A DNA stretch of 16,357 nt, taken from positions 1 through 16,357 of the forward strand of contig JAICHN010000064.1 in assembly GCA_025924845.1 (NCBI GenBank). The letters are read 5' to 3'. Shown here piece after piece: positions 1-16,357 of this stretch. The notes under the pieces were generated by a model. That model did no database searches. It was not told the DNA's origin and saw only the letters and a list, made by a program, of their open reading frames with translations. The translations under genes were made by a program, and so were the position numbers. The DNA is from Chloroflexota bacterium. GTDB lineage: Bacteria; Chloroflexota; UBA5177; JANWHV01. Numbering within the stretch: position 1 is the stretch's first letter; each line of letters begins with the position of its first letter.

Positions 1-34
1 GGCCGCTGCTTCACCATGTGGGCTTGTCATAACG

Positions 35-1204
35 TTAGTCGATCCAACTACCCTGGGTGAACTCAGCGGTGAAGAAAAAGAGCAGGGGTACGGCGAACCA
101 GGCCAGGCGACGCAGGCGGGTTTCATCCAGCATGAGGGCAAGCACGATAAATGCCGGCAAGACCGCCAGCATATAACGCCCGGTAGACAGGTAGCGGCTC
201 AAGGCAAAGCACCATCCGGCGAGACCGAAAAGAGTAAGATCGAGACCGAGCCGGCGCGCCCCCAGCAAAAGCAGGGCGAGTACGCCGAGAGCCGAAACAA
301 GGTCCCATAGGAGTACGTAGTTGGCGCTCGGAGAGTGAATAAGATGCCACTGGGGCGAGCGAATGACCGTGACGTACTGCTGGATCGTCTGCCACGGTGC
401 GAGGAGCGCGATATGCCACTTTTCCTGAAAGGTGTCCAGGATGACGCCCCCGCCCAGCCAGGCGCTGAGGATCTTTTGATAGACGAGCAGTCCCAATCCC
501 GGTAAGGCGGCGGCGCCAATGCCGCGGGCCAGCGCGCCGGCTTCGCGCTGCCGGCGGAGGGCAAGCAGGATGGGGACGACAAGCACGAGGCCCTGAAGGC
601 GGGTAAGTACGGCCAGGAGCGACAGGAATCCCGCCAGGCCAAGCCGATCGCGCCGTACCGCCAGCAGGGCTGCCGCGCTGAAGGCCAGAAACAGGGACTC
701 GCTGTAGGCGCCGAGCAAGTAAAAGGAATCGGGATACAACAAGATCACCACAATGGTACGCCAGGCCACCCGGTCGCCGAAGCCGTCCGCCACCCAGCGC
801 CAGAGTAGACCGAGCGCCGGCACGCAAGCGAGGTTGGAAACAAGCAGTCCGGCAGTGAGGTAGTGGCCGAACAAAGGCACGGCAAGGACGCGAATAAGGA
901 AGGGGTAGACCGGCATGTAGGCGGTGTTCAGACCATCGGCCGCGTAGCCGTGGGCGGCGATTTGGGTAAAGCGCAGGGCGTCGAAGTGCCGCCAGGGCTC
1001 GAGTAGGATCGCCGCGAGCCCGGCGGGCCCTCCGTTGTGCGGCAGGACGAGATAAGTAATGCTACCCACAATGGTCAGAAGCACCCGGAAGCCGACCACG
1101 AGCAGCACGAGGTCGGCCCACGGCACGGCGCATGGGGAGGCGGGCGCGGGCAAGCCGGTGCCCGCGCTCTCCGAAATCGGCTCAAGCGGAGTCGGTTCAA
1201 CCAT
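35..1204 (-). CDS. PIG-V-like polytopic mannosyltransferase (putative)
   Basis: Probable integral-membrane glycosyltransferase of the PIG-V/GT-C class, expected to move a sugar (mannose in characterised members) from a polyprenyl-phosphate donor to an acceptor on the outer face of the membrane. Numbered from the ATG at 1204 (389 residues), the luminal-loop signature HFDALRFTQIAAHGY lies near residues 73-87 with its acidic residue at D75. It is followed by AYMPVYPFL, which matches the PIG-V 'FFPLYP' element, and YPDSFYLLGAYSESLF, which matches the 'aYSEsLF' element. About ten hydrophobic segments fill the rest. The open frame extends upstream to a TTG at 1261, but I prefer the ATG at 1204 because it overlaps the upstream gene's TGA (ATGGTTGA), implying translational coupling. 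No clear Shine-Dalgarno sequence is visible. Class membership is fairly secure; donor and acceptor are unknown. Confidence 0.8.
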   Translation of the reverse strand: MVEPTPLEPISESAGTGLPAPASPCAVPWADLVLLVVGFRVLLTIVGSITYLVLPHNGGPAGLAAILLEPWRHFDALRFTQIAAHGYAADGLNTAYMPVYPFLIRVLAVPLFGHYLTAGLLVSNLACVPALGLLWRWVADGFGDRVAWRTIVVILLYPDSFYLLGAYSESLFLAFSAAALLAVRRDRLGLAGFLSLLAVLTRLQGLVLVVPILLALRRQREAGALARGIGAAALPGLGLLVYQKILSAWLGGGVILDTFQEKWHIALLAPWQTIQQYVTVIRSPQWHLIHSPSANYVLLWDLVSALGVLALLLLGARRLGLDLTLFGLAGWCFALSRYLSTGRYMLAVLPAFIVLALMLDETRLRRLAWFAVPLLFFFTAEFTQGSWID

Positions 1205-2459
1205 GGGCGCCAACCAGAGTTCGGGCGTCGCGCCGTCGATACAGCCAATAGGCCAGCGCAACCGATAGGGGAGGAAGGGCGTTGATGCCCACGGTGTGAT
1301 AGTCTCGGATCACTACCATGGGCGCCAGAACGGTGACCCAGGCCGCCAGGAGCACGGCTTGATCGCGGAGGCCCGCGCCGGCGGGACCGATCAGGCTGAG
1401 GAGGGCCGGGGCAAGGAGGATTTGGTCGCTGGTATGCACATAGGGCGATAGCGCCAGATACACGGCGATCCCTCCGCCCAGCAAATCTTGCCGACCTGGC
1501 CCGCCCGGACGGTGTACACGTACGGCGAGCTTGGCGACGATCCCGGCCGCGCCAAGCAAACACGCGGCGTTGAGGATTCCACTGGCGGCGCTGCCCTGAT
1601 AGAGGCCGGAGACGGACGCCAGATCGGGTTGCAGGCTGATGCTGTCCCCTAACTGCCGCAGGGCGGTGAGCCAATGCCCATAGGCCGCCGGCCCACCATC
1701 GAACCGTAGGCCGACCAGCGCGGCCAGTCCGCCCGCCAGTGCGAAGCCGGCGGACATGTGCTTCTTGCTGCCGTTAGGGGCGGCAAGGATGACGATGATC
1801 GCGATTGGCCCCATCAGATGAGGTTTGAATAGGCCACAGCCAAGGCACACTCCCGCCAAAAATGGTCGTCCCAGAGCGGTCAGTCGATAGGAAGCGCCCA
1901 GAGCGAGGAGCAACGGTGTGGAGTTCTGCCCCAGGCGCAGATCGAAGAGAGCGGCGGGCGAGATGGTGACCAGCGCGGCGGTGAGCAGGCGTGGACGGCG
2001 GGGCCAGTCGTACAGTGCCAGATACGCGCCGAGGGCGCCGCAGACAAAGAGCAACGCGGCCCAGAGGTGATAGGCCCCGCTCTCCGGGAGACCGGCAAAG
2101 GGTCGGAGAAGGAGCGCGAAGGGCGGCGGATCGGTATAAGGGGCGAACGCGAACGGCAGATTATGCCCCGCCCCGCCGTTGAACACTTGCTGCTGCACGC
2201 GCCAAAGGCTGGGCCAACTGAAAGGGTCTATCCCTTGCTTGTCGGCCACGGCGGCCGCGTAGAAAACCTTGAAGTCCGAGCCGTTTCCAGGGGCGGGCAC
2301 GTAGGTAGCGACATAGTAGACGGCGAAGGCCACGATGCATGCCATGAGGAGGGCAAGGGCGAGAGGTCGCCGCGTCATTGGCGCCACGATGCCTTCGGCG
2401 CCGCAATCCAGCCCCGCGTCGGAATGCAGGGTGAGGGAGTCGGGAATTGGGGCCGCCAC
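1197..2459 (-). CDS. GT87/DUF2029-type membrane glycosyltransferase
   Basis: Probable polyprenyl-phosphate-dependent glycosyltransferase (GT-C fold) in the cytoplasmic membrane. Characterised GT87 relatives are mannosyl- or arabinosyltransferases of cell-envelope lipids. Two family marks are visible: GSDFKVFYAAA, with the acidic residue (D62) in the first outer loop after TM1 and followed by GIDPF, and APYTDPPPFALLLRPFAGLP near residues 107-126, the 'Y.PP...ll.P' element. The rest is mostly hydrophobic helices. Start choice: the frame opens at a TTG at 2561 inside the promoter, and an ATG exists at 2378, but the GTG at 2459 has a near-perfect ribosome-binding site (AAGGGAGG, 4 nt spacer) at 2464-2471. 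This gives 420 residues. It is the first gene of a two-gene unit with the PIG-V-like gene. Substrate unknown. Confidence 0.82.
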   Translation of the reverse strand: MAAPIPDSLTLHSDAGLDCGAEGIVAPMTRRPLALALLMACIVAFAVYYVATYVPAPGNGSDFKVFYAAAVADKQGIDPFSWPSLWRVQQQVFNGGAGHNLPFAFAPYTDPPPFALLLRPFAGLPESGAYHLWAALLFVCGALGAYLALYDWPRRPRLLTAALVTISPAALFDLRLGQNSTPLLLALGASYRLTALGRPFLAGVCLGCGLFKPHLMGPIAIIVILAAPNGSKKHMSAGFALAGGLAALVGLRFDGGPAAYGHWLTALRQLGDSISLQPDLASVSGLYQGSAASGILNAACLLGAAGIVAKLAVRVHRPGGPGRQDLLGGGIAVYLALSPYVHTSDQILLAPALLSLIGPAGAGLRDQAVLLAAWVTVLAPMVVIRDYHTVGINALPPLSVALAYWLYRRRDARTLVGAHG

Positions 2460-2463
2460 CTGA

Positions 2464-2471
2464 CCTCCCTT
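2464..2471 (-). promoter_or_regulatory. Strong Shine-Dalgarno that fixes the GT87 start
   Basis: On the minus strand AAGGGAGG lies 4 nt before an in-frame GTG (2459-2457). It is the best ribosome-binding site in this unit. It decides the start against the longer TTG frame at 2561 and the internal ATG at 2378. Confidence 0.7.
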
Positions 2472-2532
2472 ACGATTTTGTCGGCCGACGCCGCTCTGCC
2501 AGGCAGGTAGACGGCAAAAGGTCACTGGCACC

Positions 2533-2561
2533 ATGGTAGTTACGGCGCGGAGGGTCGTCAA
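2533..2561 (-). promoter_or_regulatory. Sigma-70-type promoter of the GT87/PIG-V pair
   Basis: On the minus strand TTGACG (2561-2556) and TACCAT (2538-2533) are separated by exactly 17 bp. Transcription would begin near 2526, leaving a leader of about 67 nt before the GTG at 2459. The -35 box forms one edge of the 21-bp repeat at 2556-2576, so a protein bound to the repeat would touch RNA polymerase here. Confidence 0.6.
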
Positions 2562-2576
2562 TCACCGCGATGGGTG
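2556..2576. repeat. 21-bp direct repeat, copy 1, operator-like
   Basis: Identical over 21 bp to 5103-5123, on the same strand. The core is an inverted repeat ATCACC-GCGATG-GGTGGT (5 of 6 pairs here; 6 of 6 in the other copy). It lies between divergent glycosyltransferase units and includes the -35 box of the minus-strand promoter. A transcription-factor site is an inference. Confidence 0.55.
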
Positions 2577-2600
2577 GTGTGATTTCGCCCGGCATTGCGG

Positions 2601-2626
2601 TACAGCTGTATTAAGTCCCATATAAT
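2601..2626 (+). promoter_or_regulatory. Candidate promoter region for the plus-strand GT39-like gene
   Basis: A perfect TATAAT stands at 2621-2626 on the plus strand, preceded by the 10-bp palindrome TACAGCTGTA at 2601-2610. No good -35 box has normal spacing (TTGCGG at 2595-2600 would need a 20-bp spacer), so activator help or a different promoter is possible. A second AT-rich box, TATATT at 2681-2686, is closer to the gene. Confidence 0.35.
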
Positions 2627-2740
2627 GATCTGCACCGGGGCGTAGCCAAGAGTATCATCCAAACTGATTCACGGCCAACCTATATTTTGCCCCGCCATAA
2701 CGGTGAGATTCAGGTTCTATTGTTCAGATATCAGCATGAT

Positions 2741-4807
2741 ATGGCGCGACGCTCCCAGATTCCGTTAACTCTGGGGGCGACGATCGCCGTCCTGGCCGCG
2801 ATTGTTTCGAGGCACGCTGGTGATTCAAAGCAGGTTCCGGTCTTTGTGGTCGCGGCCACCCTGATCGCGATCGTCGGCGCGGCGATCAGCTTCCCGGTGC
2901 CGGCACCTCGCACTTTAATACTGGAAAGGAGATTTGAGCCGACCCGACCAGCTGGTCCGGCGGCTTTAGTTTTTCTTCTGCCCGCAGTGGCGGCAGTATT
3001 GATTTGGCGTACGGAGCCGTTTGCCCTTTTCCACCAATTCGTGAAATCAAGTTCGACCGGGGCGGCAGTCCTGTGGTTAGGTGGGTTGGTAGCTGGACTT
3101 GCCATGCTCTGGGATCGGTGGCACGGACAACCACGCGTCGGGGGCTTTGTCACGGCGATCAAGCGACCTGATACTCGCTGGGTGATGGCGATACTGATCG
3201 TTATCCTGATTGTGGGCGCGGTGGTACGGCTCTGGCATCTCTCCTCGCTCCCGGAGGGTATCTGGTCGGACGAAGCTGACAGCGCAGCCGATGCGGTCCG
3301 GTTGCTGCACGCGCCGTTTCAGCCGTTCGCGCCCGGTAACTATGGTCACAATCCAGCTCTCTACTTTTATGCCATGGCCGCCCTGATCCGGGCGGGCGGT
3401 GAGACCATCTGGATGGCCCGCCTGACCTCGGCGCTTTTCGGCGTCGCGAGCATCGCGGCGGCATTTGCCGTGGGCTATCAGGTGCGCGGCGCCGTGCTTG
3501 CCCTCTACGCGGCATCGTTGATGGCCATGGCCCAGTGGGCGATTACCTTTTCAAGAGTAGCGATGCCCAACATTCCCATTCCGGCGATTACCGGCCTTGG
3601 CTATGCCACGTTCATGATCGCCATGCATCGGCCGCGTCCATTTTGGTTCGCCTTGAGTGGCACGCTGCTCGGACTGTCGTTTCTTACCTATCCGGGCGCC
3701 TACTTGCCGGCGGTTATCCCTCTACTGTTGGTGTATGCGCGATCACGCTCGGATCCGGCATTTGCCCGAGCGAGCAGGCATGGACGCCTGTTTCTCCCCT
3801 TATGTTTGCTGGTCAGCGCGGCGCCGATGCTGACCACGCTGTTCCTTGATGGGAATTATGTGCTCGGTCGGGTACACGTTACCTCGCTATTCAACGAATA
3901 TCATGACACCGCCCGCCGTATCCTGGGCCTCCTCGACAACATACGTAGCTATACGTTAATGTTTACCGTCCAGGGCGATCACAACGGTCGACATAATCTG
4001 TCCGGGTCGCCCATGCTTGATCCTATTACCGGTGTCCTTTTTCTGCTCGGACTCGGAATTTGCCTTCGACAGTGGCGACAGTGGCAGTACCAGACACTAT
4101 TACTTTGGCTGGCGAGCAATCTCCTGAGCGGAATTCTGTCCCTGGAGTCTGAGGCGCCCCACGGGGCCCGCACGCTCGGCGCACTCGTCCCCGTGGTGGT
4201 TATCGCCGCGATGCCTTTGCTCTATCTCAAGCCGGTAGTGCAATCGACATTGGACCGCCTCGGCACCCACCGGGCTGTAGAGCAACAGGTTGGACCCAAG
4301 CCGGCAAGCCGCGACGCGGGACGAAAGGATACCTCCATAGCTAGCGCCCGTATTTCCGCTGGTCTTGCATCGGCTCTACTCCTAGGCGCCCTCATCCTGA
4401 ACCTCAACCAGTACTTCGGGGAGCAAGCCCGAAGTCTCCGCTCGTGGAGGGATATGGGAGGGCAGATTACCACGATGGCACGGTCAATTGCCCGGTTAAA
4501 CCGGGAAGGCGCTCACGTCTACACCGACCCGACGAAGATGAACGATATCGTGGTGCAGCTTGTAGCACCGGACTGGAAACCCCAGGCATACAACGCAAGT
4601 CATCCGTTTCGCGACGTGGCGAAAAGCGGGCAAATCGCATTCGTCATCCCTGTTCAGAGTGTGCCACTCGTGCGCCGCCTCCGATCCGGCATCAGTGATG
4701 TACGAGTGATCGCGATCACGCCGGCCTTCAATCAGCGGATAATCGAGGGTTGCGTAGTTAGCTGGCAAGCTCGGCCCGTGGCTTCGACACGGCGGAAAGG
4801 CGGGTGA
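2741..4807 (+). CDS. GT39/ArnT-like polytopic glycosyltransferase with long N-terminal membrane extension
   Basis: Probable PMT/ArnT-superfamily (GT-C) transferase acting on the outer face of the membrane with a polyprenyl-phosphate sugar donor. From the ATG at 2741 it has 688 residues. The hallmark acidic pair of the first outer loop is in LPEGIWSDEADSAADAVRLL (D177, E178), followed by a GHNPALYFY segment typical of the family's 'hPPlyyy' element. Unusually, about four extra hydrophobic segments precede the helix that leads into this loop, which in most relatives is TM1. After the last helix (around residue 560) comes a soluble tail of about 125 residues, expected outside the membrane. An upstream in-frame TTG (2687) is possible; neither start has a good ribosome-binding site. 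Sugar and acceptor are unknown. Confidence 0.8.
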   Translation: MARRSQIPLTLGATIAVLAAIVSRHAGDSKQVPVFVVAATLIAIVGAAISFPVPAPRTLILERRFEPTRPAGPAALVFLLPAVAAVLIWRTEPFALFHQFVKSSSTGAAVLWLGGLVAGLAMLWDRWHGQPRVGGFVTAIKRPDTRWVMAILIVILIVGAVVRLWHLSSLPEGIWSDEADSAADAVRLLHAPFQPFAPGNYGHNPALYFYAMAALIRAGGETIWMARLTSALFGVASIAAAFAVGYQVRGAVLALYAASLMAMAQWAITFSRVAMPNIPIPAITGLGYATFMIAMHRPRPFWFALSGTLLGLSFLTYPGAYLPAVIPLLLVYARSRSDPAFARASRHGRLFLPLCLLVSAAPMLTTLFLDGNYVLGRVHVTSLFNEYHDTARRILGLLDNIRSYTLMFTVQGDHNGRHNLSGSPMLDPITGVLFLLGLGICLRQWRQWQYQTLLLWLASNLLSGILSLESEAPHGARTLGALVPVVVIAAMPLLYLKPVVQSTLDRLGTHRAVEQQVGPKPASRDAGRKDTSIASARISAGLASALLLGALILNLNQYFGEQARSLRSWRDMGGQITTMARSIARLNREGAHVYTDPTKMNDIVVQLVAPDWKPQAYNASHPFRDVAKSGQIAFVIPVQSVPLVRRLRSGISDVRVIAITPAFNQRIIEGCVVSWQARPVASTRRKGG

Positions 4808-4980
4808 ATCCGCGGCACCTTCAACCGTACTGAACCGGTCGGGCTCCACTACGACAAGTCGTTTATCGCCACGGTACCGGCGCGTAACTGCCTACTTTTC
4901 GTGTTCCTGGTGATGTACGTTTGGCCAATCCGACGATCCGGCGAAGCGGGTTGGTCATTCAGTCTGCTCGGGAGCTGATC

Positions 4981-4996
4981 GGACGACAGATCGTCC
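4981..4996 (+). other. Perfect 6-bp hairpin in the gap
   Basis: GGACGA-CAGA-TCGTCC lies 174 nt after the stop of the large GT39-like gene. No T run follows, so it is not a standard intrinsic terminator. It could be a weak terminator, an mRNA 3' end structure or a protein site. Confidence 0.3.
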
Positions 4997-5102
4997 CAGG
5001 AGTCGGCCGGTCACTTCGGCGTAATGGTTGATTGGGACCCGCTCTCCGGCGCTTTTGGGGAGTGTATCCCTCTACTTCAGGTGATCGTTGTGTGGAAAGA
5101 GC

Positions 5103-5123
5103 CGTCAATCACCGCGATGGGTG
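5103..5123. repeat. 21-bp direct repeat, copy 2, operator-like
   Basis: Identical to 2556-2576. Here the core inverted repeat is perfect: ATCACC-GCGATG-GGTGAT at 5108-5125. It lies about 100 bp upstream of the GTG at 5224, in front of a second glycosyltransferase unit, as expected for a shared regulator site. Confidence 0.55.
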
Positions 5124-5212
5124 ATGGGCCTACCGGTCGCCGGACTGCTATCGTGCTGTACAGTACCTTCGGAATGGCGCCTCGCCCATCGAGCTGGGGG
5201 TTCATGTTGGCT

Positions 5213-5217
5213 GGAGG
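5213..5217 (+). promoter_or_regulatory. Shine-Dalgarno fixing the GTG start at 5224
   Basis: GGAGG with a 6-nt spacer to the GTG at 5224. It supports translation of the small 165-codon gene, which otherwise has no recognised homology. Confidence 0.65.
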
Positions 5218-5223
5218 GCATAC

Positions 5224-5721
5224 GTGCGGATAGAGCGACACGCCTCCACCAACCGATCGGATTCGGCATTGCTCCGGCCCCTGTCGGTGGTTCTTCTGGG
5301 ATTGATCGTCCTAGTCGGTATGTCTCGACTGTCCGTGGAGGCGCCGTTTTTCGGCCGATCGTCGCTCGTCAACTCTGCTGGTTGGGCGCCCGTACCCCAG
5401 GATGACCGGAACGCTCCCGAGGTCGATCTGGCGTTGCGCCGCGCCGCGAGCATGCTGCCCGTGAGTTCGGTATGCGTGATAGCACGTGATTCCTGGAATC
5501 GCGACTACTTCAGGGCTTCGTATATATTGATGCCCCGCCGAGTGTGGCCGGCGGCGCCCTTGCTCTCACGTCCCGTGCCTTCGCCGGGTACGCTTGCCGC
5601 GACGCTCTCCAGCCGGCATGCCGACTGCTTGCTGGTCCCGCCCGCCGCCGCCGTCCCTGACGGTTGGCTCCGGGTGAGCGGTGGGGCTTATGCGATATAT
5701 ATCCCGAAGGGCCGGCGATGA
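5224..5721 (+). CDS. Small single-pass membrane-anchored protein, unknown function
   Basis: No family recognised. The 165-residue product has a short basic N-terminus, one strong hydrophobic segment (LLRPLSVVLLGLIVLVGM, about residues 16-33) and then about 130 soluble residues. By the positive-inside rule these should lie outside the membrane. The soluble part contains SWNRDYFRASYILMPRRVWP, which resembles the 'Y..rY.l.PR.v' patch often seen in outer domains of bacterial PMT-like enzymes; that comparison is from memory. Its TGA overlaps the next gene's ATG (ATGA), so it is probably translated with the GT39-like transferase and may be its accessory subunit. GTG start with a strong GGAGG ribosome-binding site. 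Confidence 0.75.
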   Translation: MRIERHASTNRSDSALLRPLSVVLLGLIVLVGMSRLSVEAPFFGRSSLVNSAGWAPVPQDDRNAPEVDLALRRAASMLPVSSVCVIARDSWNRDYFRASYILMPRRVWPAAPLLSRPVPSPGTLAATLSSRHADCLLVPPAAAVPDGWLRVSGGAYAIYIPKGRR

Positions 5722-7106
5722 GCGGCGAGCTTCTCTGGTCCGCGCTCGCCATTGCGGCTATTCCGGCCGCGGGCTATCCCTGGACGCGGCTGCTCGGCTT
5801 GCGGGGATCGCTTGGCTTCGCGGCGGCGTGGCTGCTTGGCTCGGGGATTTTGACGAGCGCCATGCTCATTCTGAGCGTGGCTCAAGGCCGATTCACCCGG
5901 CTGTCTCTCGCACTGATCTGGTTGGCGGTTACCGCCGACGGCTGCCTGAGCGCGAGATGGAGCGAGCAATCGCTTCGACCGGCGCGGCCACGCTTGCCGG
6001 GGCGGACCGGGCTTCCGCTCACCATACTTGCATCGGCCGTGATAGCTTTCCAAACGGCATATGTCTGGCTGGCGGCGGTAAGGGTGCCTCTGGGCAGCTT
6101 CGACTCATGGTCGCTCTGGGAGTATAAGGGTAGACTCTTTCATCTCGACGGCATGGTGAGTGGGCTCAGTCTGCATGACCGCGCCCTCGTCTTCGCGCAT
6201 CCTGCCTATCCACCGCTGCTGTCGCTGCTGATCGCCTGGGTCTACACCTGGGCGGGAGCAGCGGCGCCTGCCTTGATGAAGCCGCTCTTCCCCCTCTTTT
6301 TCGGCTCGCTCCTCGCCGCGTTTTTCGCCGCGTTGGGCCCGCGCCTGGGTATCGGCGCGGCCCTGGTGGGGACCGCTGCCCTTGCGTTAATCCCCCGTAT
6401 CGCGGACTACGCGGGGACCGGGCTGGCCGATGTGCCGATGACCGCCTTTCTGGTCGCGGCGGCCTCGGCCTATTGCGCTTATCTGGAGAGCGGCGAGCGG
6501 CGCGCGTTGGTAGCCGCGGGCGTGCTGCTGGGCTTCGCGGCGCTCACCAAGCGGGATGCTCTGCCCTACCTGGGAGCGGCGGTCCTTGGGCTGGGACTCC
6601 TTGAACGGCGCGGCGGTGTGGTTACCCAAACGGCAGGCGCTGCTCTGGCGGTGTGCGGGCCGTGGTACGCCTACGTCGCCCTAACCGGCGTGCAGGATCG
6701 TGACTTTCTGCCCGCGACGCTGTCGAACATCGGCGCGCATCTCGACCGGATCGGCCCCATCGCTCGATTATTCCTCCTCAACCTCTATGCAATCGACGAG
6801 TGGAGCGTGCTCTGGATCGCCATGCCGGCCGTGCTGTTAACCGCGCTGCTCGCTCGGCGGGTGCGCACGCCTGCCTTGCTCCTCATGATCGTGCTCCCAT
6901 TGGCGGTTTTCATTGGATCGCTCAGCCTGTCCGCGTGGCCGGATTACACCGAGCATGCCAGAACGTCGCTCGATCGCTTGATCCTGGGTACCTGCCCCTT
7001 CGCCCTCTGGTTTGTCTGCGAACAGCTTGTGCCGAAGCGACTACCTAATAACCGACGGCAGCGCTTTGCGGCGAACAGAGCACCCGAGCCAGGAATCGGC
7101 CCGTAA
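5718..7106 (+). CDS. GT39-like polytopic glycosyltransferase
   Basis: Probable PMT/ArnT-like integral-membrane transferase of 462 residues. The catalytic-loop acidic residue is most likely D129 in [19 protein letters not shown] (about residues 127-145), a 'DsWs.W..Ka' pattern found in this class. The downstream elements [11 protein letters not shown] (161-171), [12 protein letters not shown] (233-244) and [10 protein letters not shown] (276-285) are in the order typical of PMT_2-type proteins. About eleven hydrophobic helices are visible. The frame is open from 5664, but the ATG at 5718 overlaps the stop of the 165-residue protein (ATGA), so that start is chosen. The last about 25 residues are hydrophilic and are encoded by DNA that also encodes the C-terminus of the convergent uvrA. 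Donor and acceptor unknown. Confidence 0.82.
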
Positions 7107-9993
7107 AGCTGTCGGGATTGGCCGCAAGATCCTCGGGTGTGCCCTCGGCCACGACCTCGCCGCCTCCGTCTCCGCCCTCCGGGCCGAGGTCGATCAGCCA
7201 GTCGGCGCTCTTGATCACGTCGAGGTTATGCTCGATGACCACTACCGTGTTCCCGGTCTCCACCAGGCGGTCCAGCACCTCAAGCAATCGCGCTACATCG
7301 GCGAAATGCAGGCCGGTAGTTGGCTCATCGAGAATGTAGAGGGTGCGTCCCGTGGCGCGCTTAGAGAGTTCGGTAGCCAGCTTCACGCGCTGAGCTTCGC
7401 CGCCCGAAAGTTGGGTGGCGGGTTGGCCGAGACGAATGTAGCCGAGCCCGACGTCGTTCAGGGTGCGGAGCTTGTTTCGTAGGTTCGGCACGGCCTCGAA
7501 AAAGGCGGATGCCTCCGAGACGGTCATCTCCAGCACATCGGCGATGTTCTTGCCCTTGTAGCGAATCTCCAGGGCCTCACGATTGTAGCGTTTGCCTTTG
7601 CAGATCTCACAGGGGACGTAGACATCGGGAAGAAAGTGCATCTCAATCTTGATGATTCCTTCGCCGGCGCAGGCCTCGCAACGACCACCCTTCACATTGA
7701 AAGAGAATCTGCCCGGTTTATAGCCGCGAATCCTTGCATCGGGCACCTGGGCGAATAACTCGCGAATCGGCGTAAACAGGCCGGTATAGGTAGCGGGGTT
7801 ACTGCGCGGCGTGCGGCCGATCGGCGACTGGTCGATGTCGATCACTTTGTCGAGGAACTCCAGGCCCTCGATCCCCTCGTGCGCGCCGGCTCGGCGCTTC
7901 ATCCGGAACAGATGCTGCGCTACGGCGTTGTAGAGCACCTCGTTGACCAGCGTGCTCTTGCCCGAACCGGAGACGCCGGTCACCCCGATAAATGTCCCAA
8001 GCGGGAAGCGCACCGTTAAGTTACGTAGATTGTTCTGGCGTGCCCCTCGCACCGTGATCGCGTGCCCGTTGCCGCGCCGTCTCTGGCTGGGAACCGCCAC
8101 GCTCAGTTCGCCCGACAGGTAGCGGCCGGTCAGCGACTCACCGCAGGCCATCACATCGTCAATGGTGCCCGCGGCCACCACATGGCCACCGTGCTCACCG
8201 GCGGCCGGGCCAATATCGACGATGTAGTCGGCAGCTCTGATCGTATCCTCGTCATGCTCCACCACGATCAGCGTATTGCCCATGTCGCGGAGCGTCTCAA
8301 GCGTATGCAGGAGGCGGGCGTTATCGCGTTGGTGGAGGCCGATACTCGGTTCGTCGAGCACATAAAGGACGCCCATCAGCCCCGAGCCGATCTGACTGGC
8401 CAGGCGAATTCGTTGGGCCTCACCACCGGAGAGGGTGGTGGCCGAGCGCAACAGCGACAGATAACCAAGCCCAACGTTGACCAAAAAGCCCAGTCGAGCG
8501 CGAATCTCCTTGAAGATTTGTCGACCGATCGCCATTTCCCGCATGCTGAGCGGCGGTGGCGCCGGGACGCGGCTCGCCCGGATCGGGCTGGGCTGAACGG
8601 TTTCCTCCCCGGCATCGGCCCCGACCAGCAGGCTAAACCAACGAGTGGCTTCGTAGATAGATAAGCGCGAAACCTCGACGATATTCAGCTTGCCCACCGT
8701 CACCGCCAAAGCTTCCGGCTTTAGGCGAGCGCCGTTGCAGACCGTGCAGGGCACGCTGGTCATGTACTCTTCGCACTCCTGCTTGTAGGTGTCGCTCTCA
8801 CTCTCACGGTAACGGCGCGCGAGCAGGGGGATAACGCCCTCGAAGCGCCCATCAAACTCATAGTGCCGCCCAGACTTCGTGCTGTGACTGATCCGCACCT
8901 TGGTTTGATCGCCGGGACCCAGCAAGATAAGCTGACGCTGATCCTCGGTCAAGGTCTCCCATGGCCGATGCGTAGTGATTCCCTGCTGCTTGCAGAACGC
9001 GTTGAGCAGGCTCCAGTAGTAGGTCCCACTGGTCTTAGACCAGGGCTGAATGGCGCCCTCATCCAGCGAGAGGTGTGGATTGGGCACTACCAAGTCTGGG
9101 TCGAACTCGAGGCGAGAGCCAAGCCCGGTGCAGGAGGGACAAGCCCCATGCGGATTGTTGAACGAGAAGGTACGTGGTTCGATTTCACCGACGCTGATCC
9201 CGCAGACCACACAGGCGAAGTGCTCGCTATAGAGATGGTCCTCACCATCCACCTCGGAGATAATCACGAGGCCGTTGCCCAGCTTGAGCGCCGTTTCCAC
9301 CGAATCGGCCAGGCGTGAAGCGTCTTCGCGCGCCTCCTCGCCCTGGTCGGCCCGGTCGTGAATAATCAGCCTATCGACGACGATCTCGACATCGTGCTTG
9401 CGATTCTTATCCATGGCAATGTCTTCGCCCAGGTCGTAGATCTGTCCGTCCACGCGCACCCGGACAAAGCCGTTGCGGCGAGCATCATCCAGGACGTTCC
9501 GCGCTTCGCCCTTACGACCACGCACCAGTGGGGCCAGTACACCCACCCGTGTATCGGGCGGTAGACCGAGGACCGCGTCCACGATTTGCTCAACTGACTG
9601 TCTACTGATTTCGCGCCCGCACTTCGGACAATGCGGATGACCGATGCGTGCGTAGAGGAGGCGTAGATAGTCGTGAATTTCGGTCACCGTACCGACGGTT
9701 GATCGGGGATTTCGGCTGGTGCTTTTCTGATCGATGGAAATAGCGGGCGAGAGGCCCTGGATGTAGTCAACATCCGGCTTATCCATCTGGCCCAAGAACT
9801 GCCGAGCATACGCGGAGAGCGATTCGACATAGCGTCGCTGTCCCTCGGCGAAGATCGTATCGAAGGCCAGGCTCGACTTGCCCGAACCGGACAGACCGGT
9901 GAACACGACGAACTTCTCACGCGGAATGCTGAGATCGATGTTCTTCAGATTGTGCTGGCGCGCACCATGCACGACGAGGTGATCTTGAGGCAT
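7045..9993 (-). CDS. uvrA: Excinuclease ABC subunit A
   Basis: UvrA is the damage-recognition ATPase of nucleotide excision repair; the dimer scans DNA and loads UvrB. At 982 residues it is a little longer than the usual 940-960. All hallmarks are present: Walker A GLSGSGKS (33-40) and GVSGSGKS (673-680), ABC signatures LSGGEAQ (521-527 and 862-868), and Walker B motifs ending LDEP (546-549 and 888-891). The first zinc finger is C261/C264/C285/C288, and the second is C772/C775/C795/C798, with the usual aromatic/charged loop between. A short insert of about 20 residues rich in Pro and Ala (about 459-482) precedes the first signature and accounts for part of the extra length. The ATG at 9993 has no ribosome-binding site but lies 7 nt after a TATACT box, suggesting leaderless translation. 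uvrB and uvrC are not in the window. Confidence 0.98.
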
Positions 9994-10000
9994 AAAATCC

Positions 10001-10006
10001 AGTATA
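10001..10006 (-). promoter_or_regulatory. Probable -10 box of uvrA, leaderless start
   Basis: On the minus strand TATACT ends 7 nt before the uvrA ATG. The normal distance from -10 box to transcription start would put the first transcribed base on or next to the A of ATG. No Shine-Dalgarno is present, and no good -35 box is seen at 16-18 bp. Confidence 0.45.
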
Positions 10007-10042
10007 GCGGCCCAGATCCCTGGGTGAGGAGTAGGTTATCGT

Positions 10043-10121
10043 CGAACCTTCGGCATAGCGAAGCATAACGCAACGAAGCCCCCCACGTGTAGCGGGGAGC
10101 TTCCGATAGGACCGAGGTTCG
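10043..10121 (-). other. Structured spacer between the zinc-ribbon gene and uvrA
   Basis: An outer stem pairs 10112-10121 with 10043-10053 (CGAACC/GGTTCG plus TCGG/CCGA, one bulged base). It encloses a 10-bp stem, 10103-10094 with 10084-10075 (GAAGCTCCCC/GGGGGGCTTC, 9-nt loop). The inner stem is complete only as minus-strand RNA, where one pair is G-U; on the plus strand it would be an A-C mismatch. It starts 17 nt after the stop of the zinc-ribbon gene and has no T run. It could be a 3' end/processing structure, an attenuator before uvrA, or a remnant. Confidence 0.45.
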
Positions 10122-10138
10122 AGAGTTGCTCGACGGGC

Positions 10139-10360
10139 TTAGGACTCGCCGGAGTCGAAGAGGATCGAGTTGCGTGACCGGCAACGGCCGCAGGCAACCA
10201 ACTTGTCGTCGGGCTGAATTTCCCAGGCATTGGCGATCGCGTTGTGCTCACCGTGGCGAATCCAGAATGTCCGGCGGTTGCCGCAAGCGATACAGACGGG
10301 CACGCGGCCCATGATCCGACCCTCGAAAGGAGCTTCCTGGCGCTTCAGCAGTCTTGGCAT
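10139..10360 (-). CDS. Small zinc-ribbon protein, unknown function
   Basis: Function not recognised. From the ATG at 10360 it is a 73-residue protein with two CxxC knuckles, CIAC (C23, C26) and CGRC (C57, C60), spaced as in a zinc ribbon. Between them is TFWIRHGEHNAIANAWEI. The N-terminus is basic (MPRLLKRQ), and there is no signal peptide or membrane segment, so it is probably cytoplasmic and might bind nucleic acid or a protein partner. Start is uncertain: the frame continues to another ATG at 10450 (103 residues). The 10360 start has GAGG 11 nt upstream, which is far; the 10450 start has only TAATAA 6 nt upstream. It reads toward uvrA, 145 bp away. Confidence 0.65.
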   Translation of the reverse strand: MPRLLKRQEAPFEGRIMGRVPVCIACGNRRTFWIRHGEHNAIANAWEIQPDDKLVACGRCRSRNSILFDSGES

Positions 10361-10754
10361 GGTGTGTAAAACCTCGATTCGCGATAAACGCCGGCTGACG
10401 TAATCCCTCGACACAACCTCCCATTTCTGGAGAGGCGGCGCGGCTACCATGCCGACTTATTAGGTGGTAAGTCGTTACTATTCGTAAAAGCTACGTCCCA
10501 ATCAGGTGCGGCCGGCTCTCGCGCATCTCCCTGATCTTCCCTGAAGTGGTTCACTCTTTTTGAGAAGGATGCAAGACGAGGGTCCTCGCCGCACTCTTAT
10601 CGTAGGACGGATACGTTATCGCAGCGTTGCGTTCAAGTTAAGGTTGGTTAATCTCCGGCGTATCCTGTTTTACACGGCGCGAAGACCTGTTCGCCGCGGA
10701 TTCCGCGCACGGGCTTCTCGATGAATATCCGTGCTGAATCAGCGAAACGTCGTC
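10361..10754. other. Gene-free stretch between the zinc-ribbon and GT4 genes
   Basis: I find no convincing gene here; the segment up to 10450 could be the N-terminus of the zinc-ribbon protein if its longer form is used. It must hold the promoter of that minus-strand gene, but no clear -35/-10 pair is visible. Downstream of the GT4 stop are two small back-to-back dyads (10679-10694 and 10695-10707). Confidence 0.5.
10679..10707 (-). terminator. Possible end-of-operon hairpins after the GT4 gene
   Basis: In minus-strand order, CGCGG-AAT-CCGCG (10707-10695) is followed directly by GCGAA-N6-TTCGC (10694-10679), starting about 48 nt after the GT4 stop. Both stems are short (5 bp) and no T run follows, so intrinsic termination is doubtful. 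Confidence 0.25.
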
Positions 10755-11873
10755 TTAAACCGCCAGTCCGTGGCGGTGTGCCAGCCTCTGGTACAGGGCC
10801 ATGTAAGCGGCAGTCATTCGCTCGGCCGAGTAAAACTGTTCCGCCCGTTGCCTGGCGCGCTCAACCATTTCGGTGCGCAGGTTCTCGTCAGCCAGTACGG
10901 CTTCGACTTGTCGACGCAGGGCATATGCATTATGAGGATCGAAGTACAACGCGCAGTCGGCCCAGATCGCCCTATACGAGGCGATGTCACTGAGCACGAG
11001 CGCACAACCGGCCAGCGCTGCCTCCACGGCGGCGAGGCCGAAGGGATCATAGAGGGCCGGCGATACGAACACCAGGGACCGCGCCATGTAGTCCCTCACC
11101 TCCGCGTGCGGAAGAGCGCCGACGAACTGCACATAGCGACTGGTCCCCGCGTTTACCGGACCTTGCGGACCTACCGTCTCGCCCACCGCCACGCACATGC
11201 GATCGGACAAGCCTTCGGCCATGCTCATGAAGCAGTCCAGGTTTTTCCCCTTGTCCCAGAGCCGCCCTACCATAATCGTGTCGAGCGAGCGAAAGGCGGC
11301 GCCGCCGCTCGTGTGGGGACTGACTCCATTCGCGATTAGGCGAACCGCGCCGCTGTAGGCATACCACCTACCTAACGCCTCGGCCACCATCAGGCTGGGG
11401 GCCACCACTGCCGCCGCCACGGCAAGGCCGCTTTTCAGGCGGTGGGCATAGGCCTGATCCACCAGCGGCATCTCCTCGTTCAACACGTGCGCGCGCCAAC
11501 TACACAGATCACTGTGAGACACCACAACAACCGGCATGCCGCTGGCGCCAAGCTCACCAAGATAATGCTCATTGGCGTGGACCAGGTGTGCCTTCCAGCG
11601 GAGGGCGAGATTCAGCACCTGCTGGAGTGCCGCTTCGTACTCAGCGTGGGCCTTTCCTTCCCATTCCAGGGGAATGTCCAACTGCTCGAGTGCCACCAGG
11701 CCGCCCCGCGGCCGGCTGCCAAGGCGGATATCCTCCAACTGGCCGGCGCTTGGCGGTCGCCCGCACACGGCCAGCAACACCTGGACGTTGTAGTGCTCGG
11801 CCAGCCCGTGCGCCAGAGTCGTGGCGTATTGCCAAACTCCCCCCACCGCGTCAGTAGTGAGAATCAACCGCAT
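10755..11873 (-). CDS. GT4-family glycosyltransferase (GT-B fold)
   Basis: Cytoplasmic Leloir glycosyltransferase expected to use a nucleotide sugar; UDP-glucuronate or a derivative is plausible because ugd is in the same operon. The 372-residue protein has the N-terminal glycine motif TDAVGGVWQYA (about 7-17), the mid-protein acceptor-side histidine VVSHSDLCSW (127-136), and the nucleotide-diphosphate element VGRLWDKGKNL (202-212, R204 and K208). The C-terminal DPFGLAAVEAALAGC (276-290) matches the GT4 E-x7-E motif, but its first glutamate is replaced by D276; E284 is kept. It is the last gene of the operon, and its ATG overlaps the end of the PRTase/kinase gene by 10 bp. There is no signal peptide. 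Exact substrate unknown. Confidence 0.88.
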   Translation of the reverse strand: MRLILTTDAVGGVWQYATTLAHGLAEHYNVQVLLAVCGRPPSAGQLEDIRLGSRPRGGLVALEQLDIPLEWEGKAHAEYEAALQQVLNLALRWKAHLVHANEHYLGELGASGMPVVVVSHSDLCSWRAHVLNEEMPLVDQAYAHRLKSGLAVAAAVVAPSLMVAEALGRWYAYSGAVRLIANGVSPHTSGGAAFRSLDTIMVGRLWDKGKNLDCFMSMAEGLSDRMCVAVGETVGPQGPVNAGTSRYVQFVGALPHAEVRDYMARSLVFVSPALYDPFGLAAVEAALAGCALVLSDIASYRAIWADCALYFDPHNAYALRRQVEAVLADENLRTEMVERARQRAEQFYSAERMTAAYMALYQRLAHRHGLAV

Positions 11874-13597
11874 GGCGCGGCCGTCAGCGAGAGCGCGGCG
11901 ATCAACCGCTTGCCGGCCAATTGCCTCGCCGCCGTAAGCCTGCCCAAGTCGTGGTGCCCTCCCGCGCGGTAGGTCGTGTCAAGCATGGCTAGTCGGTGCG
12001 CGTTGTACACGCAGTGATAGAACGGCAGACGGTGTTGCGCGCCCGAGTCACCGCTCGCTCCTGCGTAGATGGCCAGGAAGCGGGCTTGCTCGGCGGCATC
12101 AAGCTCCCACTCCTCAATGAAGCCGGCCAGATCGAAGGCAATATCTTGGGTACGCGCCCAGGAATGGTCAAGGAAATGGTCGGCCGTGTCACACTTAAGG
12201 ATACGGTCGCCCACCATGCGCCATTCCACGCGCTCGGGACGCTGATCACCGGCCAGCGCCCAAGGGTCCGCCGCGCTCGCGGCCTCGGTCATCCTGCTCA
12301 GTTGGGGCAGCCGGCCGGAACCACCCCACGCCGTGTGAATGTCTTCCACCGTCGCGTTCAAGTCACGGAAGTCGATCTCCTCGCCCGCACGCTCAGCGGT
12401 ATGACGGACGAACCCATAGTAGCGGGCGGCGGCGTCGATGATTGAGGCGCGAACCTTTGAGCCGATCGCTGGAGGGACGACCTCGCCCACCCAGTACTGT
12501 AAGAGAAAGCCATGGGCAAAGCCCCGATAGGCAGGCGCCATGCCTGCCTCCGCGATACGTTGGGATAGCGCGGCCTTGTGCCGACCAATCGGCCCGAAGC
12601 CCACGAACTTGGCAACGACCCGTTGCCCTCCGCGATCCCTGAGGAAGAGCTTTCGCCGCTCGAAGCCCGGCACCAGCGAAGCGTCGGATGCGCTCCATTT
12701 TCCCCAGGAGCAATCGCGCTCAAAGGACAACGAGCCTTCGCAGGCATCGCCCAGCAGGGCGGGCAGGCGCCGCGCAAGGAGATTTTCGATTGCCGGCTCG
12801 ACCGTGCGCACCGCAACCGACGCCCAGGTTTCGCGCACGTCGGCGCCGGCATTAGGTAACGGTCCGGGCGGATGCGCGCACACCACCACAATTCGATCCA
12901 CTGCTACGCCGGCGGCGCGGATGGCACCCACCGTGGCGGCAATAGACGAGCCGCTCAGTCCTGGTCCCTCGTCGACTACGATGAAGCGAGCGCCCCGATC
13001 GGCCGCGGCCCTCCAGGCGCGGGCGGTAGCCGGGGCAGCAATTACCTCGCGTGAAAACGGATCACCAAATGGGCGGACGGTGTGACGAGCGACCAGACAG
13101 GCTTGCCGGCGCAGTCCTGCCGCCACAGCGGCGGAAAGCGATGCACCAATACTGAGGACGCCGACCACGACATAGCGTTCGCCCCCACTTTCGACGGCGA
13201 TAGCCTGGCCGATGTCGGCGAAGGCGTCGGGAAACAGCGCGTAGAATAGGTAGCCCTCGGGCACCACAAGGGCCAATGGGCCAGGGTTGCCAAGCGGCGG
13301 CGGATTTGGCGTCGGCGGCGGGACCGCAGTCGGCGCGGCCACCCGATCGGCCCACCAGTCGGTGAGCGCACGCGCGGCGTCGTCATGGCCGGAGGCGCTC
13401 ATTTCGGACACCGCACGAGATTCCGCGATGTCCGCTAGAGCCTGCTCGAGCATTCCGGCCAGGATCAGACCGTCGCGAGCGGACTGCAGAGCACGCGAAG
13501 CACTTGGGGCGCCTACATGGCATTCGGCCAGGCACTCCAACTCGTACAGGATGTGCCGCGGGTCGCGCCGGACCGTTACATCCGTGTAAAACCTCAT
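11864..13597 (-). CDS. PRTase-like and APH-kinase-like fusion protein, uncharacterised
   Basis: A 577-residue protein with two apparent catalytic modules. Residues about 108-285 look like a type I phosphoribosyltransferase fold: VVGVLSIGASLSA (144-156) in the position of the first phosphate loop, then FIVVDEGPGLSGSS (205-218), a PRPP-loop variant with the acidic pair D209/E210. After about residue 300 comes a segment resembling an aminoglycoside-phosphotransferase-type kinase: RVVAKFVGFG (326-335, K330 as the ATP lysine candidate), then WRMVGDRILKCD with H474 and DIAFDLAGFIEEW (485-497). A classical HxD catalytic loop is not obvious. A helical N-terminus and a Pro-rich linker (about 91-107) precede the first module. 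No signal peptide, so cytoplasmic. The ATG overlaps the TGA of the hydrolase gene (ATGA). The real reaction is unknown, and domain calls rest on motifs only. Confidence 0.75.
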   Translation of the reverse strand: MRFYTDVTVRRDPRHILYELECLAECHVGAPSASRALQSARDGLILAGMLEQALADIAESRAVSEMSASGHDDAARALTDWWADRVAAPTAVPPPTPNPPPLGNPGPLALVVPEGYLFYALFPDAFADIGQAIAVESGGERYVVVGVLSIGASLSAAVAAGLRRQACLVARHTVRPFGDPFSREVIAAPATARAWRAAADRGARFIVVDEGPGLSGSSIAATVGAIRAAGVAVDRIVVVCAHPPGPLPNAGADVRETWASVAVRTVEPAIENLLARRLPALLGDACEGSLSFERDCSWGKWSASDASLVPGFERRKLFLRDRGGQRVVAKFVGFGPIGRHKAALSQRIAEAGMAPAYRGFAHGFLLQYWVGEVVPPAIGSKVRASIIDAAARYYGFVRHTAERAGEEIDFRDLNATVEDIHTAWGGSGRLPQLSRMTEAASAADPWALAGDQRPERVEWRMVGDRILKCDTADHFLDHSWARTQDIAFDLAGFIEEWELDAAEQARFLAIYAGASGDSGAQHRLPFYHCVYNAHRLAMLDTTYRAGGHHDLGRLTAARQLAGKRLIAALSLTAAPCG

Positions 13598-14472
13598 CCG
13601 TAGCGCCGTGCTACCTGTTGGGCAAAGAAGGCATATTCACCCGGATCGACCGGCGGACTGGTGTGATGCGCGCTTTTCCCGCGGCTGGGTGGGGTGAAGC
13701 AGAGCGTGGCGAGCACCTCGAACTCCTCCAGCGCGCTCATCATGCGGTCGAACCAGTCCCAGGCGCCGGGGATATGCGAATCCGCCCAGCTGATCCCCGT
13801 CCGCAGCCGTTTCACTTCCAGGCGCCGCAGCCACTTAACGGTTCGGCGCAGCCCATCGTAGTCGCCATACTGGATCCACTGACAGATACCCACTTCGGGC
13901 TGAAACGCGTGAAACGCTTGTTTCGGTTCCCCATGTTCACTGAGCAGCCCATGATAGAAGTGCCTGTAGTATGAACTTCCCTCGCTTTCCTTGTGGCGAG
14001 TCACGGCAATGGACGCGCTGGGTAGGTCAAAGAGGGAATACCAGTATATGCGCGGCACCACTCCGCAGAGCAGTTCAACGGTGCGGCTGAGACCAAAACA
14101 CTGTACCTCCTCGCAGCCGAAGCTCGATACGCCTACCTCGGTAACCCACACCGGTTTCCGGCTCATCGCTTCGATTTCGCGCACCTTGGCCGGCCAGTCA
14201 TTGAGCTGCCACAGATTCCAATCGAGAGGAAAGCCGTGGACGGCCACGACGTCAATGTGACGTTGCAGCCCATGCAGATACAGCGTGCGGATAAATTCGG
14301 CGTCGATCGGCGATATACCGCCCAGCACCCTCGTCATGCCGGGACGTTCGGCGGCGACCGCCTCGCAAGCCCACTTCACCATGGTGGCAAAGATAGTCCA
14401 ATCAGGATCCTCATCCCGATTCCAATGCGAGAGGTTATTGGGCTCATTCCAGAGCATGACCGAGTTAAGCAT
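13594..14472 (-). CDS. GH39/COG3664-like glycoside hydrolase with permuted order
   Basis: Retaining clan GH-A-type (beta/alpha)8-barrel hydrolase, similar in motifs to proteins annotated as beta-xylosidase. In this 292-residue protein the acid/base motif WNEPN is at residues 8-12 (E10), and the nucleophile candidate is E112 in VWVTEVGVSS. After a linker around residue 190 comes GICQWIQYGDYDGLRRTVKW, then RLRTGISWADSHIPGAWDWFD, LATLCFTPP and HHTSPPVDP, ending RRYG-stop. In ordinary members those elements form the first barrel strands, before WNEPN, so the order is circularly permuted. There is no signal peptide, so it may act in the cytoplasm. The ATG is 18 nt after the ugd stop and in the same frame; no clear ribosome-binding site, so coupling to ugd is likely. 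It could instead be a broken gene, but both catalytic glutamates are present. Confidence 0.82.
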   Translation of the reverse strand: MLNSVMLWNEPNNLSHWNRDEDPDWTIFATMVKWACEAVAAERPGMTRVLGGISPIDAEFIRTLYLHGLQRHIDVVAVHGFPLDWNLWQLNDWPAKVREIEAMSRKPVWVTEVGVSSFGCEEVQCFGLSRTVELLCGVVPRIYWYSLFDLPSASIAVTRHKESEGSSYYRHFYHGLLSEHGEPKQAFHAFQPEVGICQWIQYGDYDGLRRTVKWLRRLEVKRLRTGISWADSHIPGAWDWFDRMMSALEEFEVLATLCFTPPSRGKSAHHTSPPVDPGEYAFFAQQVARRYG

Positions 14473-14490
14473 GCAGAACGTCCAGAATGG

Positions 14491-15903
14491 TTAGCGTAAA
14501 GCGACGGCGGGATCTATTGATCCGTTGCCGTTCGACTCGGGTACCAAATACAGTTCGTGATCGATGTCGCCTCCGAAGGGTTGAGGACTGTAGCCGCGCC
14601 CGATCCCCAGGTAGGTGAAGCCGGCCGCCCGCAGATCCTCCGGTTCGTACAGGTTTCGCCCGTCAAAGAAGATAGAGGAGCGCATCAGCCCGCGTAGGCG
14701 TTGCATGTCGAGACTGCGAAACTCGCGCCACTCCGTGACGAGGGCGAGGGCATCGGCGCCGACCGCCACCTCGTAAGGGTCGCCCCGGAACTGGACGCCG
14801 GTGAGGAGGCGTCGCGCATTACTTTCCGCTTGCGGATCGTAAGCGGCGACGGTCGCGCCCTCGGCCAACAACTGCGCCGCGATATCCAGCGACGGCGCCT
14901 CGCGCATGTCGTCGGTATTCGGCTTGAAAGCCAGACCGAGGAGGCCGATATGCTTGCCACGCAGATCACCCAATGCGTCGCGGAGCTTGTCCACGGCCCG
15001 TGAGCGCTGGTCGTAGTTGATATCCAGAACGGCGCGTAGTAATTGTGGATGGCATCCACTAAAGTCCGCCATATGGGCGAGTGCTTTCACGTCCTTGGGG
15101 AAACAACTCCCGCCAAAGCCCAGGCCGGCATCAAGGAACGCGCCGGCAATGCGCTTGTCGTAGCCCATCCCGGTCGCCACTTCCTTGACGTCCGCGCCCA
15201 GGCGTTCGCAAATCTGCCCGATTTCGTTGATGAAGGAAATACTGGTGGCGAGAAAAGCATTGGAAGCGTACTTGATCATTTCAGCCGTGCGCAGATCGGT
15301 GACCATGACCCGGCAGCGCAAGGTGAGGTAGAGTTGGGCTACTCGCTCCGCCGCGTCGCGATCGGTGGAACCGAGCACCACCCGATCCGGCTGCATGAAG
15401 TCGTGCAAAGCGCTCCCCTCGCGGAGGAACTCTGGATTAGAGACTACCGAGAAACGGACATTCGGCCGCTTATACCGCTCGACAATGGCCGAAACCCAAT
15501 CGCCCGCGCCAATGGGCACGGTGCTCTTATTGATAATGGCCACACCGTCGCGCAGATGTGGGGCGATACGCTCCGTGCAGGTACGCACGGCGCGCAGATC
15601 GGCTCGGTCGGATCCTTCGCGGGTCGGAGTGCTTACCGCGATAAACACGAATTCGGCGTCGGCCAATGCACTGTCGTAGGCGGCCGTATCCTGCTCGGCC
15701 ACGAAGCGCAAACGGCCCCGAGTCTGGTTGTCAAGGACAAGTTCAGCCAGTCCCGGCTCGTAAATGGGCATCTCGCCCTGGCGCAGACTGGCGATTTTCG
15801 CTGAATCTATATCCAGGCAAGTGACATCATTACCCAACTCGGCAAAACAGGTGCCCGTCGTCAAACCGACATACCCGGTTCCCACCACACAGATTCGTCG
15901 CAT
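14491..15903 (-). CDS. ugd: UDP-glucose 6-dehydrogenase
   Basis: Oxidises UDP-glucose to UDP-glucuronate with two NAD+, supplying an acidic sugar donor for polysaccharides and related sugars. The 470-residue protein has the N-terminal Rossmann motif GTGYVG (8-13), AVSTPT (89-94), the substrate-loop SNPEFLREG (155-163), [10 protein letters not shown] with the conserved lysine K211, and [10 protein letters not shown] with catalytic C267 and D271. The C-terminal UDP-binding domain contains [16 protein letters not shown] (323-338) and FFDGRN (412-417). About 40 extra residues after residue 430 (Gly/Pro-rich, ending ALR) go beyond the usual end. It is the first gene of the four-gene operon. The ATG at 15903 has GAGGG 12 nt upstream, a rather long spacing. 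Function is secure; the paralogue-level name (ugd versus tuaD) is not. Confidence 0.95.
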
Positions 15904-16048: not shown

Positions 16049-16327
16049 TCAGAAGGTGACGCGGAATCCGCCGACGTCTCCCGTGGGCGGACTGGACTCT
16101 ACCTCGATCGTCTCCACGCGCGCTCCCGACGGTCCCCGGCGCAGCGCCGTGATCAGCGCCTCGATCGCTGCGACTTCCCCTTCCGCTTCCAACTCTACGA
16201 CCCTTTCATCCGGAGCATTTCGCACCCAACCGGAGAGCGCCAGCCGTGTCGCTCGCTGGGCCGTGAACTGGCGAAACCCCACGTTTTGCACCCGGCCGCG
16301 CAACGTGACGTGTACTCGCTTACGCAC
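16049..16327 (-). CDS. acyP: Acylphosphatase
   Basis: Small cytoplasmic enzyme hydrolysing carboxyl-phosphate bonds of acyl phosphates. From the GTG at 16327 it has 92 residues, the normal size. The phosphate-binding loop GRVQNVGFR (11-19) ends in the catalytic arginine R19, and GWVRN (33-37) provides the catalytic asparagine N37; the 18-residue spacing equals that of known acylphosphatases. The usual 'DGrVE' after this is DERVVE here. The C-terminus GFRVTF is typical of the family. The frame stays open to the window edge (GTG at 16357), but the inner GTG has GAGG with a 6-nt spacer (16334-16337), so the gene is probably complete. It is 145 bp upstream of ugd, same direction; a functional link is unproven. 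Confidence 0.93.
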   Translation of the reverse strand: MRKRVHVTLRGRVQNVGFRQFTAQRATRLALSGWVRNAPDERVVELEAEGEVAAIEALITALRRGPSGARVETIEVESSPPTGDVGGFRVTF

Positions 16328-16357
16328 GATCGACCTCGTCTTCGTATACTCGCGCAC

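Follow-up and report, generated by a model that had tools for sequence, protein, structure and literature searches.

The gene studied here lies on the minus strand of a 16,357-nucleotide stretch of DNA from a Chloroflexota bacterium (assembly GCA_025924845.1, contig JAICHN010000064.1; hereafter the window). To judge from its sequence and predicted model, it very probably encodes a naturally circularly permuted glycosidase of the clan GH-A type. The exchange of two barrel segments, the position of the break, the conservation of both catalytic glutamates and the single clade formed by the permuted proteins in the sampled tree come directly from the computations. The gene and its parts are as follows.

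13594..14472, minus strand: permuted glycosidase gene, 292 amino acids, strand order beta4-beta8 then beta1-beta3
13909..14472, minus strand: residues 1-188, strands beta4-beta8, with the predicted acid/base E10 and nucleophile E112 (from hhalign and the model strands)
13597..13908, minus strand: residues 189-292, strands beta1-beta3 (from hhalign and the model strands)
14443..14445, minus strand: codon of E10, predicted acid/base, invariant in 80 sequences and aligned with PslG E165
14137..14139, minus strand: codon of E112, predicted nucleophile, invariant in 80 sequences and aligned with PslG E276

Exchange of the barrel segments

Clan GH-A enzymes are (beta/alpha)8 barrels with an NE(P) acid/base motif after strand beta4 and a glutamate nucleophile on beta7, and they work by retaining catalysis through these two glutamates. 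In the window protein the acid/base motif comes almost at once (W8 N9 E10 P11 N12) and the stretch 109-116 contains E112, while GISWADSH, LCFTPP, HHTSPP and ARRYG all fall within the final 67 residues, ARRYG being the last. A preliminary description, made from the window's sequence, had read the motifs in these places, with the elements that normally come first at the C-terminal end, and had proposed a circular permutation. A stop codon 6 codons upstream of the start closes the frame (the stop-to-stop open reading frame ends at 14490), which rules out a hidden N-terminal half for this reading frame.

The permutation is best seen by comparison with a family of canonical-order cousins. This family, first found adjoining the permuted gene in a Dyadobacter genome and widened by search to 715 matches among 1393 candidates, differs from the permuted one in having the usual beta1-beta8 order, and many of its members are fused to an SDR enzyme. 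Since a Pfam scan of rotated single sequences was undecided, profiles were compared instead. In hhalign profile-profile alignments, residues 2-191 of the permuted family match cousin positions 110-294 (score 341.6, E 1.5e-50) and residues 189-292 match positions 3-107 (score 230.2, E 1.1e-33), as against 10.2-19.6 for 10 column-shuffled controls. Among 19 cuts in a rotation scan, the best was cut 188, which gave a score of 563.6 in a single alignment of 279 columns; cut 0, the native order, gave 341.6. Over these 279 columns the rotated permuted family and the cousin are 35% identical and share the motifs and both glutamates. The N and C parts of the permuted protein are dissimilar (score 10.7), so that it is not an internal repeat.

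The preliminary description had set the break between ARRYG and VMLWNEPN. There the profile alignment places '...RRYG-MLNSVMLWNEPNN' on '...TRYGEYFEYVELWNEPNN' with one gap column, which puts the new termini in the loop that precedes strand beta4. From the sequence comparison, the old termini are placed as fused near residues 184-195 of the permuted protein.

The same exchange is seen with PslG (PDB 5bx9, 4zn2, 9g17). The cousins match this enzyme in one stretch (17-268 on 27-305), in contrast to the permuted profile, which aligns in exchanged order, 195-291 on chain positions 22-128 and 3-155 on 132-303 (whole E 3.2e-07). Both glutamates are retained as the preliminary description had it: E10 falls on PslG E165 and E112 on PslG E276, residues that are described as key to PslG catalysis (PMC7237758).

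The exchanged order holds throughout the family. In a scan of species genomes at least 593 loci were confirmed, of which 80 were kept; the counts of element order and ugd were taken over all 80 rather than over the reading frames returned by a simple gene picker, which gave a usable frame in 53 loci (in 14 of these 53 an in-frame stop lies no more than 20 residues ahead of the NEP motif). With the cousin hidden Markov model run on six-frame translations, the order beta4-8 then beta1-3 was found in 80 of 80 loci, and in none did a beta1-3 piece occur in the 600 bp that precede the beta4-8 piece. The upstream barrel half by which the preliminary description would have recognised a truncated tandem protein was thus not seen. 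The gene likewise consists of two exchanged pieces in 35 of 35 whole genomes, selected among the source genomes of the 80 loci. Set against clan GH-A, the protein shows exchanged segments, one best cut, uniform termini and no tandem remnant.

Predicted fold and catalytic residues

The model of the window protein is a (beta/alpha)8 barrel (pLDDT 91, pTM 0.90) with strands beta4-beta8 at residues 2-7, 47-53, 75-78, 108-113 and 142-145, followed by beta1-beta3 at residues 195-197, 222-228 and 252-258. The predicted barrel occupies the whole 292 residues, with residue 2 already in strand beta4, and by canonical numbering the motifs stand where clan GH-A has them. In the alignment of 80 sequences of the permuted family E10, E112, N9, H79, W144 and R224 are invariant.

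With VIA-align 2 the model aligns end to end with complete TIM barrels, in keeping with the closed barrel that the preliminary description had called for. The top Foldseek match is PslG. Most of what both programs list is unrelated TIM barrels, and neither alone is proof of permutation, since barrels of permuted and of normal order can also be fitted to each other in a shifted register. The informative part of the structure comparison is the contrast of the permuted model with that of the cousin.

Family size and phylogeny

The preliminary description had allowed for a small uncharacterised family. A family it is, rather than a peculiarity of this genome, and it is not small: all of the 8000 candidates scored (those sharing most words with the query, among 5.8 billion proteins) matched at E<=1e-3, a count of matches and not of checked element orders. 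The 120 matches listed cover 98-100% of the window protein and share 58-91% identity with it. Many bear the name 'beta-xylosidase', which the preliminary description had also mentioned; it is the source's own label and a name only.

In the comparison of breakpoints that this description had proposed, most homologues share the N-terminal one. Of the 121 aligned sequences (the query and the 120 matches listed), 109 have their start at the first residue of the query; it lies five residues further on in 4 and one residue further back in 6, and 2 have 12-13 extra residues. C-terminal extras amount to 0-1 residue in 70 of the 121 and reach 36 in others. By their titles, the 80 kept loci come from Chloroflexi, Bacteroidota, Ignavibacteria, Gemmatimonadaceae, Verrucomicrobia, Nitrospirae, myxobacteria, many Proteobacteria and one Williamsia metagenome-assembled genome. 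One Chloroflexi locus (L001) carries two divergent permuted copies on opposite strands, at 4027-4908 and 8001-8876.

The canonical cousins are often named as an SDR type, for example 'CDP-paratose 2-epimerase' or 'GDP-mannose 4,6-dehydratase'; the family itself is unnamed. Examples are found at L020 (15580-16881), where the additional SDR sugar-nucleotide enzyme is cut off at the end of the locus, and at L081-L091. A full canonical copy shares the locus with the permuted gene in 2 of the 80 (L020 and L039). In 11 of the 35 genomes holding the permuted gene the cousin is matched over its full length (E<=8.9e-88), in open frames of 688-799 amino acids, and in several of the 35 there are weaker, more distant canonical-order matches. 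The genome behind L021 (Skermanella) encodes, at L107, a canonical-order glycosidase-SDR fusion without both catalytic glutamate motifs, likely a pseudo-enzyme.

Permuted proteins were sampled for a tree as the window protein, 12 of the 120 listed proteins and 30 of the 80 loci (43 before thinning), and the outgroup candidates were six distant canonical-order matches and two further places. Removal of 17 long, odd-composition or redundant rows from a set of 112 left 95: 40 rotated permuted proteins, 50 cousins and, for the outgroup, 5 distant GH39-like proteins. In this tree all 40 permuted rows fall together in a single clade (100/99). The 50 cousins make up a separate clade (96/92), which appears in 94% of 200 bootstrap trees. 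This fits a single origin of the permuted family. The tree program warns of meeting long branches in this tree, and the permuted clade may be sister to the cousins or nested among them. In the 112-row tree, where the canonical paralogue of L020 had been entered as permuted, the cousins split into two groups, whose branching relative to the permuted clade is not resolved. The canonical order is taken as ancestral, because it is found in PslG, in the cousins and in the outgroup alike.

Gene neighbourhood

Three genes flank the permuted gene in the window.

14491..15903, minus strand: ugd, UDP-glucose dehydrogenase type, upstream (TIGR03026 above cut-off)
11864..13597, minus strand: 577-amino acid protein, downstream, a recurrent neighbour with homologues in 15 of 80 loci
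10755..11873, minus strand: GT4-type glycosyltransferase (PF00534, E 7.9e-17), of a group found in 43 of 80 loci

Neighbours were counted as profile matches up to 8 kb on each side of the permuted gene and carry the names of the models; 61 of the 80 loci have 6 kb on both sides, and similar groups (the two SDR groups, the two PF13524 groups) may share one gene. On this count a TIGR04290 methyltransferase is near the gene in 59 loci (in 52, on the same strand and with its domain ending no more than 117 bp upstream), a histidine phosphatase in 58, inositol-3-phosphate synthase (Ino1) in 50, PF13524-type glycosyltransferases in 55 and 58, SDR enzymes in 44 and 44, and a nucleotidyltransferase in 36. 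Zn-alcohol dehydrogenase (21), Gfo/Idh (19), GNAT (12) and PIG-L (11) proteins are rarer, as is the 577-amino acid type. Of the usual neighbours the window keeps only a glycosyltransferase, the GT4 enzyme; it also has the rarer 577-amino acid protein. The latter is possibly an uncharacterised two-domain enzyme; it gives a weak phosphoribosyltransferase signal (PF00156, E 0.042), and a homologue gives a kinase-like one (NF041256, 3e-7, below cut-off). The preliminary description had also mentioned ugd-type genes beside such proteins. In this it was not borne out, for a homologue of the window's ugd was found by tblastn in 2 of the 80 loci.

The neighbourhood looks like a glycan or glycoside assembly pathway. 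Inositol synthase, a glycosyltransferase, PIG-L deacetylase and GNAT make up a mycothiol-type pathway; Ino1, PIG-L and GNAT occur together in 3 of the 80 loci, and a mycothiol-like assignment was not adopted. A separate observation concerns L060, where 15 genes run on the same strand (15-13747), in part recurring in other phyla: glycosyltransferases, Ino1, nucleotidyltransferase, TIGR04290 methyltransferase, the permuted glycosidase, PIG-L, GNAT, phosphatase and Gfo/Idh.

Relation to known enzymes

At E<=1, a Pfam scan of the window protein returned just PF11790 and PF07745, both below cut-off, and no GH39 model; NCBIfam gave no model at this threshold, and none is listed for the L060 relative. 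By these tests, and with its non-canonical strand order, the protein is not counted as GH39; it is classed as a relative of PslG, of the clan GH-A type and circularly permuted. PslG is described as the glycosidase of the Psl exopolysaccharide and called GH39; unlike the permuted protein it has the usual order, a signal or membrane segment and a C-terminal carbohydrate-binding domain, and is placed in the periplasm or inner membrane (PMC7237758, PMC10485009, PMC6813494).

Natural circular permutation of whole glycosidase barrels seems rare. The GH70 glucansucrases and GtfB-type enzymes differ from the present family in belonging to clan GH-H rather than GH-A, in their motifs, and in being secreted multidomain enzymes that act on sucrose or starch. 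They are the known case, a natural permutation of the (beta/alpha)8 barrel with reordered motifs relative to GH13, as described in PMC9732880. The deacetylase domain (CE4) of PgaB is described as another naturally permuted carbohydrate-active barrel (PMC13366581); it differs in being a deacetylase, not a glycosidase, with a 7-fold barrel. Among the matches listed from the open-access literature there was no permuted clan GH-A enzyme. Searches of that literature found no paper on the permuted family, on circular permutation together with GH39 or with PslG, on TIGR04290, or on the neighbour terms taken together.

Alternative explanations

Several observations weigh against a permuted glycosidase acting in such a pathway. 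No curated Pfam model reaches its cut-off, and a single-sequence phmmer search of the PDB returned no glycosidase. PF11790 scores 17.9 bits on the native protein and, on six rotations, 18.5, 18.5, 18.4, 17.8, 17.4 and no match, every score being below the cut-off of 21. The beta1-3 stretch taken by itself scores 4.6 bits on PslG, which is not significant. Unrelated TIM barrels outrank PslG on the model by Z, and four other AlphaFold models have mean pLDDT values of 85.2-86.3. The spread is patchy: in a sample from the class of Bradyrhizobium, 2 of 142 genomes, including Bradyrhizobium itself, have the gene. The pathway role is guilt by association, and of eight proteins compared from the L060 neighbourhood, including the methyltransferase and Ino1, none has a match in the window.

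The barrel might be non-catalytic and bind a sugar or nucleotide sugar as scaffold or regulator. The material examined records no activity for the permuted family, and apparently inactive forms exist in the cousin family, as the L107 fusion illustrates. We regard this as unlikely, for the invariance of both glutamates together with N9, H79, W144 and R224 would be hard to explain otherwise. Slightly less probable still is a PslG-like role, in which the enzyme would trim a polysaccharide during export, outside the cytosol. PslG is both the best profile match and the first Foldseek match, and its gene is described as lying within an exopolysaccharide operon (PMC10485009). However, PslG has a signal or membrane segment according to the reports cited above, in contrast to the permuted protein, whose second residue is already in beta4; the frequent fusion of cousins to an SDR sugar-nucleotide enzyme also points to the cytosol.

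Circular permutations are thought often to arise by tandem duplication and trimming, and the protein could be what is left of a barrel once duplicated, or one of two halves encoded by separate genes. This is very improbable given the closed upstream frame, the uniform starts, the eight predicted strands and the lack, in all 80 loci, of a beta1-3 piece in the 600 bp upstream. Even more remote is convergence in a shifted register, an unrelated TIM barrel with the catalytic glutamates on its own strands 1 and 4, since both segments match the cousins in exchanged order, with 35% identity once rotated.

Proposed origin and function

The ancestor of the permuted glycosidase would have had the usual beta1-beta8 order, in common with the cousin family and, at a greater distance, PslG. 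Fusion of the original N and C termini would have taken place near residues 184-195, and the chain would have been reopened in the alpha3-beta4 loop, just ahead of the acid/base strand. The barrel would still close, with E10 on beta4 and E112 on beta7 remaining three strands apart, and the enzyme would presumably work by a retaining double-displacement mechanism.

Since the protein begins with a barrel strand, there is no space for a signal peptide, and from the sequence and the model a cytosolic location is expected. Most likely the protein acts there as a retaining beta-glycosidase or transglycosidase, in a pathway that builds a glycan. Its likeliest step, which we put forward tentatively, would be to trim or transfer a sugar on an intermediate supplied by the neighbouring glycosyltransferases, methyltransferase, inositol-3-phosphate synthase and phosphatase. 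A broader proposal is equally doubtful at present: the GH-A permutation may have founded a large, separate cytosolic family in a widespread pathway that builds a methylated, perhaps inositol-containing, glycoside, with the permuted enzyme trimming or transferring sugars and its SDR-fused cousin, where present, doing a related step. If so, the permuted enzyme would merit a glycosidase family of its own.

The permuted family is widespread and occurs with a canonical cousin, sometimes in the same neighbourhood, so that folding, stability and activity could be set side by side for the two orders. It also illustrates how such proteins escape notice: curated domain models stay below cut-off, and an order-bound structure aligner matches a part only. 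The permuted gene in addition marks a conserved gene neighbourhood.

Other features of the window

Two further minus-strand features, recognised by eye from their translations, lie outside the finding.

7045..9993, minus strand: UvrA-like protein
16049..16357, minus strand: acylphosphatase-like open reading frame
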